From Eubacteriales bacterium (GTDB lineage Bacteria; Bacillota; Clostridia; Oscillospirales; CAG-382), in assembly GCA_028702135.1 (NCBI GenBank), contig JAQVPJ010000001.1, positions 1-64,000 on the forward strand: DNA of 64,000 bases. Direction: 5' to 3'. The position numbers and the translations under genes were made by a program. The notes under the pieces are model-generated. The model was not told the DNA's origin, searched no databases, and saw only the letters and a list, made by a program, of their open reading frames with translations. This document shows, in pieces, positions 27,989 to 53,827 of the stretch. The stretch's first letter is position 1, and each line of letters starts with the position of its first letter.

Positions 27989-30070
27989 TTAGCCTTCCTC
28001 TTGTGATTTCTTTGTTTCAGCAATAACCTTTTGTGCCACTTCAGCGGGAGATTCGTCATATCTTTCAAAATCAAAGGAATATGATCCCCTGCCCTGTGTC
28101 ATCGCTCTTAACTGTATCGCATAAGTGCCCATCTCGGCAAGAGGAACCTCTGCGGCAACGACTGTATAGCCCTTTCGGTCTGTCTGATCAGTACCCATAA
28201 TTCTGCCCCTGCGCTTATTGAGGTCGCCTATAATATCTCCCATCATATTGTCGGGAATAACGACTTTGAGTGATCCTATAGGCTCAAGAAGCACTGCATT
28301 GCCCTGTCTCATACCTTCCTTGAATGCAAGGTTGGCGGCAAGCTTGAAAGACATCTCCGAGGAGTCAACATCGTGGTAAGAACCGTCATATAGGTTTGCT
28401 TTTAATCTGATTACGGGATATCCGGCAAGTATTCCCTTTGCCATAGACTCCTGCAGACCCTTTTCAACCGCAGGATAGAAGTTTTTAGGAACAGCTCCGC
28501 CGAAAACGCTTTCGGAGAAAACAAGTCCCTCTTCCTCTCCGGGCGAAAATTCAATTTTTACATGACCGTATTGTCCGTGACCGCCGGATTGCTTTTTGTG
28601 TTTACCCTCAACCTGTACTTTTTTCTTAATAGTCTCCCTGTAGGGAACCTTAGCCGGTTCAAGCTCTATTGATGTTCCGAAACGGTTCTTTAACCTTGAG
28701 CATAAAACATCGATCTGCGTGTCGCCCAGACCGTATATGCACATCTGCTTGGTCTCGGGATTATTATGATACTTAAGGGTATAATCCTCCTCGAGCAGCC
28801 TTGAAATGCCGGATGAAATCTTATCCTCGTCTCCCTTTTCTTTCGGAACGATGGCCATGCAGAAATAAGGTTTCGGAAGCTCGATCGGAGCGTATTTTAT
28901 TTTCGAAGATGAATCGCTTGAAAGAGTATCGTTGATATTTGTGTTTACAAGCTTGACGGTGACACCTATATCGCCGTAAGCAAGTTCATCGACTGCAGTC
29001 TCCTTAGTGCCGACACAGGTAGCAAGACGTGCAAATTTCTCCTGCTGTCCGTTGGTAAGATTGGTCATTACCGTGTCCTTTTTAAGGGTACCGTTCATAA
29101 CCTTGAAAAAGGTCTTTTTACCGAACTGGTCAGCAAGAGTTTTAAAAACAAAGATGCTTGCAGGTCCGTCTTCGGAGGCTGTTATCTCCGATACTTTACC
29201 CTCTGCGTCTATAACACTCTGCTCCTTTTTATCAAGCGGTGAGCAGAAGGATTCCGAAATTACATAAAGCAGATTACGAACACCCGATAGATTTATTGCC
29301 GAGCCCGAGAAAACGGGGGATATTGTTCCCTGCAGAAATCCCGAATTCAAAGCGGAATTCTTTTCCTCACCGGTAAGAGGCTCTTCCATAAAGTATTTTT
29401 CCATGAGTTCTTCGCTTGTTTCGGCAAGCGATTCATCGAGCTGCTTTTGGTAGTTCTCCATCCTGATCTTTTGACTCTCCGGCAAAACGACCTCGCTGCG
29501 CTTTCCCATTTTATCAAATTTATATGCAACATTCGTTAGCAAATCGTAATAGCTGAGATCCTCGGTCCCCTCATTAAAGGGAATATACATCGGGCATACC
29601 GAGGTGCCGAACTTCTCTCGCAGACTTTCAAAGGTTTCGTCGAAATTAGAATTTTCGTCATCGGTCTTATTAACAAAAAAAGCTTTAGGTAAATCTTTGG
29701 CGTTATCCCATGCAAGCTCTGTTCCGACCTTCACACCGCTTTTTGCCTCAACGACAATAACTGCGGTCTCCGCCACCCTAAGAGCCTCTTTTACCTCGCC
29801 GATAAAATCAAAATATCCCGGAGTATCAAGAATATTAATTTTAACGTCATTCCACTCTATGTTTGCCAAAGCGGTCGAAACTGAAATTCCTCTTTTTTTC
29901 TCCTCAGGGTCAAAATCACAAATTGTGTTTCCTTCAGTCGTCCTTCCAAGCCTTTCCGTTGCCTTTCCAAGGAACAACATAGCTTCCGCTAATGAGGTTT
30001 TGCCGTCACCGCCGTGGCCGATAAGGCAGATGTTTCTGATTTTACTCGAGTTAAATTTTGCCATGTACAA
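27989..30070 (-). CDS. Elongation factor G-like GTPase (EF-G paralogue)
   Basis: GHGGDGKTSLAEAMLFLGKATERLGRTTEGNTICDFDPEEKKRGISV; DTPGYFDF; NKTD; C-terminal EF-G domains. First residues could start at the MAKF Met (30064). Confidence 0.92.
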   Translation of the reverse strand: MYMAKFNSSKIRNICLIGHGGDGKTSLAEAMLFLGKATERLGRTTEGNTICDFDPEEKKRGISVSTALANIEWNDVKINILDTPGYFDFIGEVKEALRVAETAVIVVEAKSGVKVGTELAWDNAKDLPKAFFVNKTDDENSNFDETFESLREKFGTSVCPMYIPFNEGTEDLSYYDLLTNVAYKFDKMGKRSEVVLPESQKIRMENYQKQLDESLAETSEELMEKYFMEEPLTGEEKNSALNSGFLQGTISPVFSGSAINLSGVRNLLYVISESFCSPLDKKEQSVIDAEGKVSEITASEDGPASIFVFKTLADQFGKKTFFKVMNGTLKKDTVMTNLTNGQQEKFARLATCVGTKETAVDELAYGDIGVTVKLVNTNINDTLSSDSSSKIKYAPIELPKPYFCMAIVPKEKGDEDKISSGISRLLEEDYTLKYHNNPETKQMCIYGLGDTQIDVLCSRLKNRFGTSIELEPAKVPYRETIKKKVQVEGKHKKQSGGHGQYGHVKIEFSPGEEEGLVFSESVFGGAVPKNFYPAVEKGLQESMAKGILAGYPVIRLKANLYDGSYHDVDSSEMSFKLAANLAFKEGMRQGNAVLLEPIGSLKVVIPDNMMGDIIGDLNKRRGRIMGTDQTDRKGYTVVAAEVPLAEMGTYAIQLRAMTQGRGSYSFDFERYDESPAEVAQKVIAETKKSQEEG

Positions 30071-30199: not shown

Positions 30200-32740
30200 T
30201 CAGAGAGAAAACGACGTAATCCAGACAGGAACCAGCCAAATCATCTGCAGCATTATCATGTAATACGAACTTATAGCCGACATATCCCCCGTTACCGAAA
30301 GAAACGTAGCGGCAAAGAAGGAAAGAAAAACGCTTACGATTGTAATTATTGCGTTGCTCTTCGTAACATGCCTTGCTTTATCGCAGATGACGAACATCCT
30401 TAAGAAAGTGTGCAGCGAAGCGTTCGATACTATACCGCTGTCGATCTCATCACACTCGTCGTTAATATCCTCGTGAGTTCCCGCTTTAAGTATAGCAATC
30501 GGACATTTTTTAAACCTTATTCCGTTAGCAAGAAGCTCGTTGTTTATGTTTGGGTCAAGAGTTTTAATCCCCAAGCACATTCCGGCTTTATACATATCTT
30601 TGAGCAAAGCGTCGAACAAAGGGTTAAGAGTATATTTTATATAGACCTTTGCGGCAAGAGATTCGTTCATAACGACATACATAATCGAGCCTACACTTTT
30701 TTCGTACAGATCGTCATCGGGATCAACCGGCGTCTCAAAGCGGTAACGGCGCATATAGCTCCTTTTACCGAGGAAAATATGAGTTCCGTCGATGGCGATA
30801 CAAATACCATCGGCTGCCGACTCTATGAGTCTTATGGATTTTGGCTCTTCCAATTCGCCACCTAAGGTACTTGCGAAGACCTTCTCAAGCGGTCCGCCGA
30901 TAAATGCAAATACCTTTGCGAGATCAGGTATTATTTTGTCGATTCTGTAATCTCCGTAAGTTCTGAGGCTGGTTATTTTTACAAGGTGCGCCGGATAGAC
31001 CTCGGTATCAGCAAATGACAAAACCGAGGCATCGGCGTATTCCTCGGAAACTGCGTTGCCTATAAACGCGGAATTGCAGTATGCACCCCTTTTGTTAGCC
31101 ACTATTACCGGTAACGGTATCATGAAAAACGATGCCAGCGGAACCGAAGAGGTAATAAGCAGCAGAGATGCAAGGAACGAGGAATGCAGGTCTTTTTCGA
31201 TCAGATACATCACACCGAACAAAACTACGCCTGCGATAATGATAACAGGAATAAGGAAGTTAAAAAGGTCCTCTCCTTTGGCACGCTTTTTTGTACGAGC
31301 AAAGAAGCCTTTTATGAATCCTGCCTTTTTTACGGTGTATAAATCCGAACTCTCCATCAGGTATTTATAGAACTCATCCGCCTCGCGTGCCGAAGCGTCA
31401 AGCTCGACCGCTGCGTATTTTGCTTTTTTGGAAGCGAGAACGCGGAAGCAGTGATAATCCTTTTTGTTGCTTAGATAATTAATTACAGCAGAGCATACCG
31501 CTGCTGCCGCGCAGGGAAGGCTATATAGTTTAAGATCGGGGGAGGTCGGGTTGGCTAAGAGCACGAAAACGGAATATACCGTTGTAAAAAACAGGGATAA
31601 AACGAGCATACTGTCAGTGTTGAGCTTTCGGTTAAAAATACCTGCTATTCCGTTTCTTATGCTTGAAAGCATTGTTATTGCTATAAAAAACAGTATTTGT
31701 AAATCAACGAGTATGTAAAGTCTGCCGTTTATGCCCTGAGTCAGATAAACCGGATGCCAGCTGCTGCCCTTTACAGCAAGTTCCAAATAAAGAATAACGA
31801 GAGCGAAAACTGCAACTAATATCAGCTTTATTCTGCTGTACATTATTGCCTTTTTTAACATTGTGTTAATCTCGGTGTTCTGCTCGCGGGAGGTATATTC
31901 ATATTCGCTATCAACGTTGATTTTGTTTGTTTTCCTGCTTTTCTTGACCTTATCCTTATCTTTATTTAAAAACTCGTCTATGTCGTAGCGGCTCTCGTCC
32001 ATCATATTGAAAGCCAGCCGCAGTTTTATATCTGTTTCGTCCAGTGGCTCGCCCTCCTCGTCGGTATATGCAAGCCTGTCTGCCTCATCCTGTTCAAAGA
32101 CGAGCTGATTCTCGTCCTCATCTTCATTTTCTATTACTATCTCGCCGCTTGTAATTTTCTCGGTTAGCTTCTCGTAATCACTGTCAAAGCTCGCGGTATT
32201 TTTTGCCGGAGCAATATCCTCTATCTCCTTGGTATCGCCGAAATAGAACATCTTTTCCTGAGAATATTCATCCTTATGCGGAATTGCATCGGGCTCTGAG
32301 AATCTTTTACTGTCTATAGCTACCGGTATCGAAACTTCAGCGTCGCTCTGTGTAGCGTTTTTCGCATCGTTGATAAGTGAATACAGCTCCTCGACCTTCG
32401 CACTCCTCGTCACGGACCTTTTTTCCTCGAAAAATTCAAGCAAATCCTTGCTTTCCTGCATCTGCGAGGACAGCGATTCTCTCAAACGTTGCGTATCCGA
32501 AAACGGCTTTTCCTTCTCCTTTTTTGCATACACGCTTATAATCTGTGCGGCTTCATCACTTATCCTGCCGGTATTTGCCATTGTCTCTGACGGCTTGTCG
32601 ACGATAATGGTCTTTGCGTTGTTGTCCGATTTTTCAGGCTCGTCCAGCTTGGTACGTTCATATAAACGCGCCTGTTCATTGTCTATTTCCGCCCTTTTCA
32701 GAAGCTCCTTCAAATACATGCTGTTAGCATCTTTCGACAT
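30200..32740 (-). CDS. Degenerate P1-like P-type ATPase homologue (predicted catalytically inactive) with long acidic N-terminal extension
   Basis: N-domain-like SAADGICIAIDGTHIFLGKRSYM and P-domain-like SIMYVVMNESLAAKVYIKYTLNPLFDALLKDMYKAGMCLGIKTLDPNINNELLA; DKTGT position reads ADTEV; start at MSKDANSMYL with SD gaaagga. Confidence 0.7.
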   Translation of the reverse strand: MSKDANSMYLKELLKRAEIDNEQARLYERTKLDEPEKSDNNAKTIIVDKPSETMANTGRISDEAAQIISVYAKKEKEKPFSDTQRLRESLSSQMQESKDLLEFFEEKRSVTRSAKVEELYSLINDAKNATQSDAEVSIPVAIDSKRFSEPDAIPHKDEYSQEKMFYFGDTKEIEDIAPAKNTASFDSDYEKLTEKITSGEIVIENEDEDENQLVFEQDEADRLAYTDEEGEPLDETDIKLRLAFNMMDESRYDIDEFLNKDKDKVKKSRKTNKINVDSEYEYTSREQNTEINTMLKKAIMYSRIKLILVAVFALVILYLELAVKGSSWHPVYLTQGINGRLYILVDLQILFFIAITMLSSIRNGIAGIFNRKLNTDSMLVLSLFFTTVYSVFVLLANPTSPDLKLYSLPCAAAAVCSAVINYLSNKKDYHCFRVLASKKAKYAAVELDASAREADEFYKYLMESSDLYTVKKAGFIKGFFARTKKRAKGEDLFNFLIPVIIIAGVVLFGVMYLIEKDLHSSFLASLLLITSSVPLASFFMIPLPVIVANKRGAYCNSAFIGNAVSEEYADASVLSFADTEVYPAHLVKITSLRTYGDYRIDKIIPDLAKVFAFIGGPLEKVFASTLGGELEEPKSIRLIESAADGICIAIDGTHIFLGKRSYMRRYRFETPVDPDDDLYEKSVGSIMYVVMNESLAAKVYIKYTLNPLFDALLKDMYKAGMCLGIKTLDPNINNELLANGIRFKKCPIAILKAGTHEDINDECDEIDSGIVSNASLHTFLRMFVICDKARHVTKSNAIITIVSVFLSFFAATFLSVTGDMSAISSYYMIMLQMIWLVPVWITSFSL

Positions 32741-32830
32741 GAATAAGATCCTTTCTCCGACGAAAAATACATAGATGAGCCGTTTGCGTCGACACACAGC
32801 TCATGCTTGTGGAATGTATAAAACCGAGAC

Positions 32831-33664
32831 TTATTTCTGCGTGCGTTGTCGTGCCGCCTCGAACAAAACAACCGCACCCGCATTGGAAACATTCAGCGAG
32901 TTGATTTTGCCGTACATTGGAACAGATATTACAAAATCGGAATTATCCCTTACAAGCCTTGTAACTCCGCTGTTTTCCCCTCCGAGGACAAAGGCACAAG
33001 CGCAATCAAAATCGCTCTTGTAATAAGGAGTTCCATCCGATTCAAGTGCATAGATCCATACATTATTATCCCTGAGAGTTCTCATCGCAGAACTGAGATT
33101 GGATACTCTTGCTACCGCCATATGGAAAACTGCGCCGGCAGAAGCTTTTGCAGCTGCTCCGTTTACACTGACCGCGCGTCGTTTTGGTATGATTACTCCG
33201 TGAACGCCGGCACATTCCGCCGTTCTTATTATCGCTCCGAGGTTGTGGGGATCGTTTATGGAATCACAAATAACAATAAACGGTTTTTCTCCGCGTTCTG
33301 CAGCTATCGCGAGAATATCCTCCACGCTCACATATGCGGTTTCGGACGCTATCGCAGCCACTCCCTGATGAACTCCCCCTGCCGACATTTTATCAAGCCT
33401 ATGCTTGTCCACCTCGACTACGGGAATTCTGCTCTCTGCAGCTCTTGCGACAATCAGGGTGATAGATCCCTCCCGTTCACCCTTTTGCACATATAACTTA
33501 TCGATCTCTCTGCCGCTCTTTAACAGCTCGAGAACGGCGTTTCTGCCAATAAAAACATTGTCATTTCCGCCGTTGTCTTCCGTGCTGCCGCTTATGTCGC
33601 CGTTTTTATTGCCGTAATAACCGCTTTTATTTTTATAATTTGACATTAAGAATAATTTCTCCAA
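32831..33664 (-). CDS. rlmB: 23S rRNA 2'-O-ribose methyltransferase (TrmH/SpoU family, RlmB-like)
   Basis: FIGRNAVLELLKSGREIDKLYV; DPHNLGAIIRTAECAGVHGVIIPKRR; GGENSGVTRLVRDNSDFVISVPMYGKINSLNVSNAGAV. Confidence 0.93.
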   Translation of the reverse strand: MEKLFLMSNYKNKSGYYGNKNGDISGSTEDNGGNDNVFIGRNAVLELLKSGREIDKLYVQKGEREGSITLIVARAAESRIPVVEVDKHRLDKMSAGGVHQGVAAIASETAYVSVEDILAIAAERGEKPFIVICDSINDPHNLGAIIRTAECAGVHGVIIPKRRAVSVNGAAAKASAGAVFHMAVARVSNLSSAMRTLRDNNVWIYALESDGTPYYKSDFDCACAFVLGGENSGVTRLVRDNSDFVISVPMYGKINSLNVSNAGAVVLFEAARQRTQK

Positions 33665-48754: not shown

Positions 48755-51037
48755 ATGCTAATAAAAAAGTGCAGCCGCTGCAAAACACGCGTTGCGGTCA
48801 TATATGTAACTAAAAACGAGTTCGGCAGAGCGATCAGCGAGGGCTATTGCCTTAAATGCGCTAAAGAGCTCGGAATCAAGCCGGTCGACGATATTATCAA
48901 AAGAATGGGTATGAGCGAGGAGGAGTTTGACGCCATGAGCGAGGAGATGTCCGAGCTTATGCCGCAACTTGACGAAAACGAGGAAGAAAACGACGAGGGC
49001 AGAGCTCCGGCAATTGATCTTAATGTCATGCTGTCGGGAAATCCTAATCAGCAGCCCGTTCCGTATAAAGAACAGACCGGACGTCAGGATGGAAACGTTA
49101 AAGACGAGAAGAAGCAAAAACGGAAATTTCTTGACCAATTCTGCATAGACCTGACCGCAAAGGCACGGCAAGGCAAAATGGATAGAATCGTCGGCAGAGA
49201 AAACGAGATTGAGAGAGTAATTCATATTTTGACGCGCCGCCAGAAGAATAATCCCTGCTTAATCGGCGAGCCTGGAGTAGGTAAAACCGCTATCGCTGAG
49301 GCGCTCGCTCAAAAAATCGTAAATAGAGCTGTACCTTATAAGCTTCTTGAAAAAGAGGTTATGCTTGTAGATATGACCTCTGTCGTTGCGGGTACACAGT
49401 TCAGAGGCCAATTTGAGAACCGTATGAAGGGTCTTATTGAGGATGCGAAAAAAAGCGGGAATATTATTCTGGTAATAGATGAGATTCATTCCATAGTCGG
49501 AGCAGGAAATGCTGAAGGCGGAATGAACGCTGCAAATATCCTTAAACCCGCGTTGAGCAGGGGTGAGATACAGCTTATCGGCGCGACCACGTTAGTTGAA
49601 TACCGCAAGTATATCGAGCATGACGCCGCACTCGAAAGGCGTTTCCAACCTGTTTTGATTAACGAGCCGTCCATTGAGGACAGTATTGAGATTCTTACGG
49701 GCATTAAATCCTATTATGAGAGTTTTCACGGTGTAAAAATACCCGATTCAATGATAAGCAGGATGGTTACTCTTTCCGAGCGTTATATAACAGACCGCTT
49801 CCTGCCGGATAAAGCGATAGACCTTATGGATGAGGCATGCGCTTATATGGCTATGCACTCTCCCGTTGTCGATAACATCAACCGTACAGCTGATGAGATA
49901 AAAACTCTTAATACCGAAAAAGAGGCGATTGAGAGCAAAGAGACTATGGAAGAGAACGATTATTCCCGTTTAGCTGACATTAAAACAAAGCTGCTTCAGA
50001 AAAATCAACTTTTCGATTCTCTTTCCGCAGAACGTGACAATCTTTATCTGGATGAGTTCAGCCTTGCAAAAGTAGTGGAGGTATGGACCGGAATCCCGGC
50101 AACTAACATTAATGAAAACGAATTCCAGAAAATCGAGCGCCTCGAAAACGAGATCAAGAAACGCATAGTCGGACAGGATGAAGCAGTCTCTAAGGTGGCA
50201 AAAGCAATAAAGCGCAACAGAGCGGGTATTTCATACAAGAAAAAGCCTGTGTCGTTTATCTTTGCAGGTTCAACCGGTGTAGGTAAAACCGAGCTTGTAA
50301 AAGTGCTCGCAAAATACCTTTTCGATACTCCTGACGCATTGATTCGTCTTGATATGAGCGAGTTCATGGAGAAGCATTCGGTATCAAGAATCATAGGCTC
50401 ACCTCCCGGCTATATCGGCTATGACGATGCCGGTCAGCTAACCGAGAAAATCCGCCGCAAGCCTTATTCTATAGTATTGTTCGACGAGATAGAAAAAGCT
50501 CATCCCGATGTTCTGAATATCCTTTTACAAATTCTCGACGACGGCCGCATTACCGATTCACACGGTAAAGAGGTCAACTTTGAGAACGCTGTTATTATTA
50601 TGACAACTAATGCCGGAAGCAAGGACTTTTCTGCCACTGCGGGTTTTACAGCATCTTCAAAGAACAGCGACGAGGAGAAGGTAAAAAAAGCGCTTGAGGA
50701 TTTCCTGCGTCCCGAGTTTATCAACCGCGTTGATGAAATAGTGGTGTTCAACCGCCTGACAAAGGAGAATTTCTCGTTTATATGCCGCATTATGCTCGGT
50801 GATTTGCAAAGCGTGCTCGCAGATAAACAAATCAAACTCGATTACGACGACAAGACCGTCGAATATCTTGTTAATAAAGGTTTTTCCGAAAAATACGGTG
50901 CCCGCAATCTGCGCCGTCTAATCCAGACCGACGTTGAAGATCAGCTTGCAGCAAGGATTATAGAACGGTTTTTTGCCCCATTCGACAACGTATTTATTAC
51001 CGTAAAAGGAGATAAAATCGAAATTACCAGCAAATAA
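48755..51037 (+). CDS. Clp-family AAA+ unfoldase with N-terminal Cys4 zinc finger (ClpE-like)
   Basis: [35 protein letters not shown]; two Walker A motifs [14 protein letters not shown] and [15 protein letters not shown]; no Clp_N repeats. Confidence 0.92.
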
Positions 51038-51058: not shown

Positions 51059-53827
51059 GTGCCGCTTAAAAAACCGGTAGATAACCCTCGCCGAAAGACA
51101 TTACACAACGAGTCACCCCTATATGACGACAAATCAGATATCGGCGACATCAATAAAATACGCACTGTTACCTCCGATTCCGGCAGACAATATGACAGCG
51201 GCTCATTCTTTCCCGCAGGGATGCAACCGTTTGAGGTAGCTGAATTTCTGGATTCCGATTTAATCGGCGGATTAAACCTCAAGCAGATAAAAAAGCGCAT
51301 CTCAAGGCACGGTGCGAACATAATTACAAACGAGTTCAGACTCACATTCAAACAGAGCTTAAAAAATCAGATCAAGGGTTTGATAGGCCCGCTATTGATC
51401 GCCTGCTCTCTTCTTATGTATGTGTTTGAAAGTCAATACACATACCTCGCATTGGCGGGTGTTACATTCTTGCTTGTAATTATCAATGCCCTTCTCGAAT
51501 CCCGTGCATCCAATGCTTTGAATGTGCCGAGGAAATATTCAGCCATAAAAGCAAGCGTAACACGGGAGGGTATAACGGATATTACCGACAGCAGGCGGCT
51601 TGTTCCGGGAGATATAATAGTCTTGTCGGAAGGTATGGTGGTTCCCTGCGATGCCCGTCTGATTGAGGATAATGCTTTAGCAGTGCTTGAAACTCCTGTA
51701 AGCGGCAAGAAGGGCAGCGTCTTAAAGGATTCCATCTATATAGCTGCGAACGACGGTGAGCTTGTCTATCCGAACATGGTTTATGCCGGTTCAATAGTCA
51801 CCGGAGGGTATGGAAGTGCGATAGTATGTTATACGGGTAAGGATACTCTGTTAAGACGCATTAACGAGAAAAAAACTGATTTCCTTCCCCTGATGCTTAA
51901 ATATATACAAAGGACAAGCAAGTATCTTTCAATCACCGCAGTATTCGCATGTTTCACTCTGCTTTTACTCGGTGCTCTTACAGGACGCAGCATCCCGGAG
52001 CTTTTTATTATATCAATTTCAATCGGCGCGGTTTCATTATGTGACAGTATGCTGTCGCTTTCATCAGCTTCTTTCGGATACGGTGTAAAAATGATGTCTT
52101 CCAAAGGGACGGTGGTTAAAAACCTTAACTGTATCCCTGCGATTTGTGAGATTAACACGATTATGTGCAGCAAGAATACCGCTTTCCCTCCTAAGAAAAT
52201 GACTTTAAGCGGTATTTACACGGACAATGACTTCCTCGCAGCGGATAAAAAGATGACTGACAGGGCAAAAGAACTTTTATATATTGCTCTCGCGTGCTCG
52301 GATATAAAATTCAGCAATCATTCTAAAAAGCGTAAAAATGTTCCTGATTTCAAAGGTAGAATCTATGACTGTGCCATCGCTCTTTTTCTTGCGGAAAAGG
52401 GCTACGATGTTCCCAAAGAGCTTGCTGAATTCTTTAAAATCGATACGGAATACTCCCTTTCGGGAGAGGTTTCAAGGATTCTTATACTGTACAAGGGAAG
52501 AAATATTGTTGTTCTCAAGGGAGCGCCCGAATTTATACTCTCGCGCTGTACCGGTTACGAGCTTAACGGAACCGGTTATAAAATGAGCCAGATAACCCGC
52601 AGGCGAATACTCACTGCCCTTGAGCAAAATTCACATGAATCGGGATATATCATAGCAATAGCTGCCGGAGAAACCTCCGCAGACAACCTGAGGGATATTA
52701 CTGCTGAGCGGAGACTGATGTTCAAGGGATTTATTACACTTTACAGTGCGATAGACGTTGATAACGCCTCAGCTGTTTATAAATGCGATCAGGCAGGAAT
52801 CGAGACGGTCGTGTCCTCCTCGGACAGCTACTATACCGCATACAACATGGCTAAAAATGCAGGTATCGTAACCACGGAGCAGCAGGTTGTTAGCGCCGAA
52901 CAGATGTATGCCACCGAAAAAGGGCTTTTTATTGCTAACTGTCCCGATTATAAGCTTTTCCTTAACTTTTCGGACAGCGAATGGCTTCAGATTTTAAAAT
53001 ACCGCAAAGACGACAAACGAGTCGTAGGTGCCACCGCAGAGAGGCTTGAGGAGCTTGTTCTGATGAACGAGGCGGATGTATCATTTGTTCCCGAAAGCGC
53101 ACCCGACACGCTCAAGCAATCAGCTGACGTTCTTATGTTGTCAAGCGGTTTTGACACATTAATAGACTGTCTGCAGAATGCGCGGCTGATATTCGTCCGT
53201 ATTCATTCGGTTGCCGAATATCTTACGGTCGGCTTTTCGGTGCTGTTTCTAACTGCTTTGTTTTCACTGATAGTCGGAACACCCCTTCCGTTCCGGGTAC
53301 AAGAGATATTGTTCGGTGGTATTATTTTCAACTTGTTTTTTGCGGCAAGCCTTGCTTTTTCTCCGACAAACCGAAAACTGCTTATGGAAAAGCTGCCGAA
53401 ATACAAGCCAAAACCGAGAGTTGCGGATTTTCTAAACCCGCTTATATATTCGTCAGGCGCTTCAGTTTCGCTTCTGGTTATATACGGTATTACAAAGAGC
53501 TTCTCTGCAACTTTATTAGGATTTACAGTATTACTGTTGCTGTATGCCCAAACAAATATATTCCGTACAAGCATTTTTAAGAAAAAGGTGTTCGGTAATC
53601 CGCTTTTTATTTTAACGGCGTTGTTTTCCGCTTCGATAATGGCTTTGCTTTTCCTTTTTGAACCGTTGAGGGTGACTTTCGCTTATACGAATATTACGCT
53701 TCTCCAGATATGTATAAGCCTTGCGGTTTCGGGGGGATACTTTATAGTACTGCAGCTAATCAAGCTCTGGATTGATATATATACAGCGAAAAAAAGAGAG
53801 AAATCCCTTTTACCTGCGCAAAAATAA
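51059..53827 (+). CDS. Degenerate P2-like (SERCA-type) P-type ATPase homologue, predicted catalytically inactive
   Basis: Cation_ATPase_N-like QPFEVAEFLDSDLIGGLNLKQIKKRISRHGANII; N-domain KGAPEFILSRC retained; DKTGT position reads KNTAF; GTG start with SD gaggtga. Confidence 0.8.
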   Translation: MPLKKPVDNPRRKTLHNESPLYDDKSDIGDINKIRTVTSDSGRQYDSGSFFPAGMQPFEVAEFLDSDLIGGLNLKQIKKRISRHGANIITNEFRLTFKQSLKNQIKGLIGPLLIACSLLMYVFESQYTYLALAGVTFLLVIINALLESRASNALNVPRKYSAIKASVTREGITDITDSRRLVPGDIIVLSEGMVVPCDARLIEDNALAVLETPVSGKKGSVLKDSIYIAANDGELVYPNMVYAGSIVTGGYGSAIVCYTGKDTLLRRINEKKTDFLPLMLKYIQRTSKYLSITAVFACFTLLLLGALTGRSIPELFIISISIGAVSLCDSMLSLSSASFGYGVKMMSSKGTVVKNLNCIPAICEINTIMCSKNTAFPPKKMTLSGIYTDNDFLAADKKMTDRAKELLYIALACSDIKFSNHSKKRKNVPDFKGRIYDCAIALFLAEKGYDVPKELAEFFKIDTEYSLSGEVSRILILYKGRNIVVLKGAPEFILSRCTGYELNGTGYKMSQITRRRILTALEQNSHESGYIIAIAAGETSADNLRDITAERRLMFKGFITLYSAIDVDNASAVYKCDQAGIETVVSSSDSYYTAYNMAKNAGIVTTEQQVVSAEQMYATEKGLFIANCPDYKLFLNFSDSEWLQILKYRKDDKRVVGATAERLEELVLMNEADVSFVPESAPDTLKQSADVLMLSSGFDTLIDCLQNARLIFVRIHSVAEYLTVGFSVLFLTALFSLIVGTPLPFRVQEILFGGIIFNLFFAASLAFSPTNRKLLMEKLPKYKPKPRVADFLNPLIYSSGASVSLLVIYGITKSFSATLLGFTVLLLLYAQTNIFRTSIFKKKVFGNPLFILTALFSASIMALLFLFEPLRVTFAYTNITLLQICISLAVSGGYFIVLQLIKLWIDIYTAKKREKSLLPAQK

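Follow-up and report, generated by a model that had tools for sequence, protein, structure and literature searches.

The window analysed here is a stretch of 64,000 nucleotides from a Clostridia genome of ~2 Mb. The genes relevant to this analysis, including the ORF hereafter called T, are as follows.

27989..30070, minus strand: EF-G-like translational GTPase of the NF009381 subfamily (NF009381, E 7e-254), downstream of T
30203..32740, minus strand: T, an ORF of 846 aa, almost certainly encoding a pseudo-P1B ATPase; start set by alignment and Shine-Dalgarno sequence
32831..33664, minus strand: rlmB, 23S rRNA (G2251-2'-O)-methyltransferase (TIGR00186, E 3.8e-65, above the cut-off), directly upstream of T
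51059..53827, plus strand: T2, a P2A/PMR1-like pseudo-ATPase without TGES, DKTGT, and GDGxND

T2 adjoins a ClpB/ClpA-like AAA+ gene at 48755-51037. The ATG of T at 32740 is closely preceded by a Shine-Dalgarno-like GGAG/AAAGGA sequence, and same-genus relatives begin at the matching place. A GTG at 32797, which would give 865 aa, is disfavoured, as it is the ATG that has a ribosome-binding site and coincides with the start conserved among relatives. The protein begins with an N-terminal region of ~278 aa that is acidic and largely disordered, followed by a 568-aa core; its parts are as follows.

31907..32740, minus strand: acidic N-terminal region, 278 aa (68 D/E, 43 K/R), mostly of low confidence or disordered in the model
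32651..32713, minus strand: conserved N-terminal helix (model helix, residues 10-30, pLDDT 72-84)
31433..31888, minus strand: four membrane helices corresponding to P1B MA, MB (kinked), M1, and M2 (model helices and hhalign)
31280..31432, minus strand: shrunken remnant of the actuator (A) domain without TGES (two strands in the model)
31079..31279, minus strand: M3 and broken M4, with the CPC proline kept (P534) and both cysteines replaced (hhalign and column counts)
31136-31144, minus strand: VPL at the CPC position (hhalign alignment)
30992..31015, minus strand: FADTEVYP in place of FDKTGTLT (ungapped hhalign; catalytic Asp to Ala, Lys to Asp)
30887..30898, minus strand: GGPL in place of (S)EHPL of the N-domain (hhalign and columns; ATP-binding Glu and His lost)
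30551..30562, minus strand: TLDP in place of TGDN (hhalign and columns; Thr and Asp kept)
30206..30415, minus strand: M5 and M6 (model and hhalign); ~35 aa with GDGxNDxPAL are deleted just before, relative to P1B

Homology, predicted fold, and motifs of T

Searched alone, T matched no Pfam or NCBIfam model above the curated cut-off (Pfam E1-E2_ATPase, E 0.048) and gave nothing usable against Pfam, NCBIfam, or PDB sequences, the homology being visible only through the family alignment. hhalign of the T family against 14 intact CopA/P1B proteins gave an E-value of 5.9e-27 over 541 columns, and 46 of 59 members individually matched the NCBIfam heavy-metal P-type ATPase model TIGR01525, as judged by E-value (best, 4.4e-14). 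The P1-like resemblance proposed in the first-pass annotation is thus far beyond chance, and the stretches quoted there (SFADTEVYPAHL, TLDPN, and SAADGICIAIDGTHIFLGKRSYM) are all present in T.

The alignment of 59 sequences over the 568-residue core was used as input for an AlphaFold model, which has a mean pLDDT of 88.5 and a pTM of 0.83. Its best PDB matches by Foldseek are copper P1B-ATPases (4bbj, E 7.3e-17; ATP7B 7si6, E 4.7e-16), and the matches to P1B structures span residues 17-568 of the 568. VIA-align of the model to 3rfu gave a Z of 23.7 over 480 residues with an rmsd of 8.3 Å; domains shifted between conformational states are the probable cause of this value. The helix order of P1B (4 TM, A, 2 TM, P/N, 2 TM) is reproduced, with the A-domain present only as a remnant. 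The predicted fold, named beforehand as one of two points on which the assignment should stand or fall, is P-type and specifically P1B.

Neither DKTGT nor GDGxND occurs in the aligned members across the order (0/123 for each), and orthologues with intact motifs were sought but none was found among these 123. At the phosphorylation site, FDKTGTIT aligns with FADTEVYP without gaps, with matching residues anchoring both sides, which bears out the Asp-to-Ala replacement previously noticed in the window. Among the 123 members, the catalytic position is occupied by D in 31, A in 29, S in 13, E in 10, and other residues (also T, K, N, or R) in the rest, and the neighbouring Lys position by D in 103. 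The reading of TGDN as TLDPN was likewise upheld by alignment, and its Asp is found in 120/123 members. In M4, the proline is kept in 106/123 members, and the CPx metal site is absent, the window having VPL with both Cys gone. IPLPVIV had been placed at the CPx position, but this was wrong: the position is occupied by SVPLAS (P534), and IPLPVIV pairs with ATPTAI, the stretch that comes next. The HP motif is also missing, EHPL being read as GGPL.

TGE(S) was not found in the A-domain, most of which is absent in the hhalign alignment; the remnant of ~50-65 aa agrees with the shortened actuator domain described earlier. A few TGES/TGEA strings occur elsewhere in 7 members. Deletion of the GDGxNDxPAL hinge, where hhalign shows ~35 residues missing relative to P1B, adds to the motif losses already listed in the first-pass annotation. 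As comparators, 12 proteins were taken from the weaker hits of the profile (10 outside the order and 2 within it), all of which are intact pumps with CPC, DKTGT, GDGIND, and TGE.

These data indicate that T almost certainly represents a pseudo-P1B ATPase family. It is filed as a derivative of the P1B-ATPases and not among their members, since tests for the defining motifs found them absent. Since the main catalytic and metal-binding motifs have been lost, T is predicted to be unable to form the aspartyl-phosphate or to run the pump cycle. What has been lost is the known chemistry, which is not the absence of all chemistry. The genome itself encodes six P-type ATPases with DKTGT, two of them with CPC; T therefore need not replace an intact CPC P1B pump.

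The long acidic N-terminal extension noted from the sequence proved real, comprising 278 aa with a net charge of -25; tails across the family have a median length of 275 aa and are 24% acidic. In distant members the tail carries motifs like FSLDDILAEF, which a strict regex detected in 27/131 tails, compared with a mean of 0.4 in shuffled tails. Near-identical motifs of this type lie in the T N-termini of loci L165, L162, L172, L170, L176, and L184, whose tails are otherwise unalignable. No similar motif was found at other N-termini in 2.27 Mb of DNA, and a search of other proteins in 16 genomes, using a partial DNA pattern that misses some Ser codons, yielded only chance-like matches. The motif looks like a docking element. 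It is, however, poorly developed in the family to which the window belongs, which counts against the scaffold reading discussed below.

Distribution, selection, and gene neighbourhood

The order sampled appears to be Oscillospirales, on the evidence of named records, Acetanaerobacterium elongatum among them. A profile search identified T in about 137 of the 147 sampled genomes of this order. Two of these are weak cases: G025, which was confirmed, and G104, whose gene is read as split over two contigs. In 231 genomes from the rest of the class, the same profile detected no T. Matches outside the order are only partial and reach at most 83 bits, and the 10 that were fetched are intact pumps. A clade-specific class, as had been suggested, is thus supported.

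T is not clearly present in 10 genomes of the order; in eight of these a clear RlmB is missing too, and the locus has therefore been lost or left unassembled as a unit. In the other two (G050 and G028), the contig ends just past rlmB, followed by the start of a T-like gene that is clear in G050 and less so in G028. The eight without T and without a clear RlmB orthologue are G007, G084, G149, G122, G145, G056, G048, and G089, of which four are at least 95% complete.

rlmB is located immediately upstream of T on the same strand at 107 of 115 loci, with a median gap of 28 nt. The eight non-adjacent loci comprise three contig ends, four overlaps resulting from the choice of the earliest start codon, and that of G025, where no rlmB was found within the 1 kb examined. 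The EF-G-like gene 3' of T is a frequent, not universal, neighbour. The adjacency to rlmB suggests that T is co-expressed constantly, in housekeeping fashion, with a gene of ribosome maturation, rather than responding to metal stress.

The dN/dS ratio of T is 0.03-0.14 for pairs with at least 73% identity, the core giving lower values than the tail; one more distant pair gave 0.33, at a divergence too high for the value to be trusted. T is functional and not a decaying pseudogene. A role in sporulation was considered and set aside, as genomes in which no Spo0A was found still carry T.

The second degenerate gene, T2, has a different distribution. T2-type proteins were seen in families f1, f19, f20, and probably f17, family f23 has a partly degenerate one, and intact P2A relatives are numerous in the same genomes. 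In phyletic profile, T is thus present order-wide, and the gene at 51059-53827 was seen in a few families. The claim of two degenerate P-type lineages in one window therefore holds in that both are real, but they are unequal, T being near-universal and P1B-like and T2 patchy and P2A-like. A single origin of T2 is uncertain; the tree is compatible with it, but the branches are long. A P2A ATPase at L233 (G065:C4:136143-138689) carries half-degenerate motifs (DKTGVFT, TGEI, and GNGLDD) and possibly represents an intermediate stage.

Possible roles of T

The explanation of T as a pseudoenzyme with a receptor or scaffold role in the membrane is, as a whole, somewhat favoured. Sequence, profile, and model show an orthologous family derived from a heavy-metal (P1B, CopA-like) ATPase: its membrane bundle is preserved, as are the frame of the P-domain and the fold of the N-domain, and the main catalytic and metal-binding motifs are lost. 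At the cytoplasmic face, the membrane core and the P/N module may display a conformation that is either fixed or set by a ligand, and a soluble or membrane partner may dock on the disordered acidic tail and its conserved N-terminal helix. Catalytically dead T would then recruit or regulate this partner through the tethered helix. This scaffold or receptor mechanism has roughly an even chance of being correct and is the most likely of the readings considered. Against it, the conserved link to rlmB concerns an RNA enzyme and points to no membrane partner, and Asp is retained at the catalytic position in 31/123 members.

T might instead be a passive transporter or channel through which an ion or small ligand moves downhill, with the cytoplasmic module as its gate and no use of ATP. 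The conserved membrane part and M4 proline (core P256 and P266, each in 106/123) and the conserved E42, Q70, Q554, and W557 (core numbering) in or near helices would suit such a function. However, the CPC cysteines are gone, and the best-conserved residues are mostly Gly, Pro, aromatic, and P/N-domain positions and not a polar pore line, making a channel rather unlikely.

To the same limited degree, T could regulate another P-type ATPase, either an active one or a second dead one, as a subunit of a hetero-complex with T2 or an intact pump. T and T2 are both encoded in this genome, and in f19 genomes T2, rlmB, and T lie in a row on one strand, with T2 directly upstream of rlmB-T; in one f19 genome (G146; L177, 2-2314), an intact Ca-type P2A ATPase stands upstream of rlmB where relatives have the dead one. 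The remaining f19 cluster coordinates are L154, 7092-9548 and 3995-6244; L203, 6862-9072; and L151, 2-1978. On the other hand, T2 is patchy whereas T is near-universal, and in the window the two genes are 18 kb apart on opposite strands.

It is improbable that T is a new HAD-type enzyme catalysing another phosphate reaction by means of D300-x-E/D302, T449, and D451 (core numbering). These positions resemble HAD motifs I and II and are conserved (D300 in 103/123, E or D at 302 in 110/123, T or S at 449 in 108/123, and D451 in 120/123), but the ungapped flanking match places A299, not D300, on the catalytic Asp, and T has neither the aspartates of motif IV (GDGxND) nor the LPxDK lysine. Finally, a decaying pseudogene or assembly artefact, to which the loss of the main catalytic motifs might point, is refuted by full-length open frames in nearly all genomes, the low dN/dS (about 0.03-0.14), and synteny fixed order-wide.

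Returning to the scaffold or receptor reading, a broader and quite speculative extension is that order-defining dead P1B pumps couple a membrane state (ion, metal, or lipid) to a partner, which may be the translation apparatus. In some lineages a dead P2A pump would be added, giving a signalling pair for which a bacterial precedent is undescribed.

Comparison with known systems

P-type ATPases are among the best-studied pumps, and Oscillospirales are abundant in animal guts. Dead P-type pumps kept by selection throughout an order would be a natural experiment on the fold without catalysis, and a near-universal gene of a gut order with no assigned function merits a name and a knock-out. The strict adjacency to rlmB makes its function directly testable. 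Automatic annotation could label T proteins as hypothetical or mistake them for metal pumps. Searches of the open-licence literature for pseudo- or inactive P-type ATPases, signature proteins, and pseudoenzyme transporters found no such bacterial family and no description of T, and the passages seen of one review (PMC10654040) mention no dead bacterial P-type ATPase family.

With the P1B-ATPases (CopA, ATP7B; 3rfu, 4bbj, 7si6), T shares the eight-helix layout, MA and kinked MB, the broken M4 with its proline, the P and N folds, and significant profile similarity, but it lacks DKTGT, TGES, CPC, HP, and GDGxND, its A-domain is shrunken, and a long acidic tail replaces the metal-binding domains. 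KdpB (P1A) belongs to the same superfamily by Foldseek and was weaker than P1B in both searches; it is known to be without MA and MB helices, which T has. The PMR1-type P2A Ca-ATPases and T2 are also of this superfamily, and T2 is likewise a pseudoenzyme, but they differ in subfamily and helix layout, and the loss in T2 was separate. The nearest precedent comes from malaria parasites, whose guanylate cyclase beta has a degenerate ATPase domain: in Plasmodium GC-beta (PfGC-beta), a P-type ATPase module with degenerate motifs is reported to be kept in a signalling protein (PMC6592433). The alveolate guanylate cyclases (Plasmodium GC-beta and Toxoplasma ATPaseP-GC) are, however, eukaryotic, of the P4 type, and fused to a cyclase, and their tie to T is at the level of the superfamily only.
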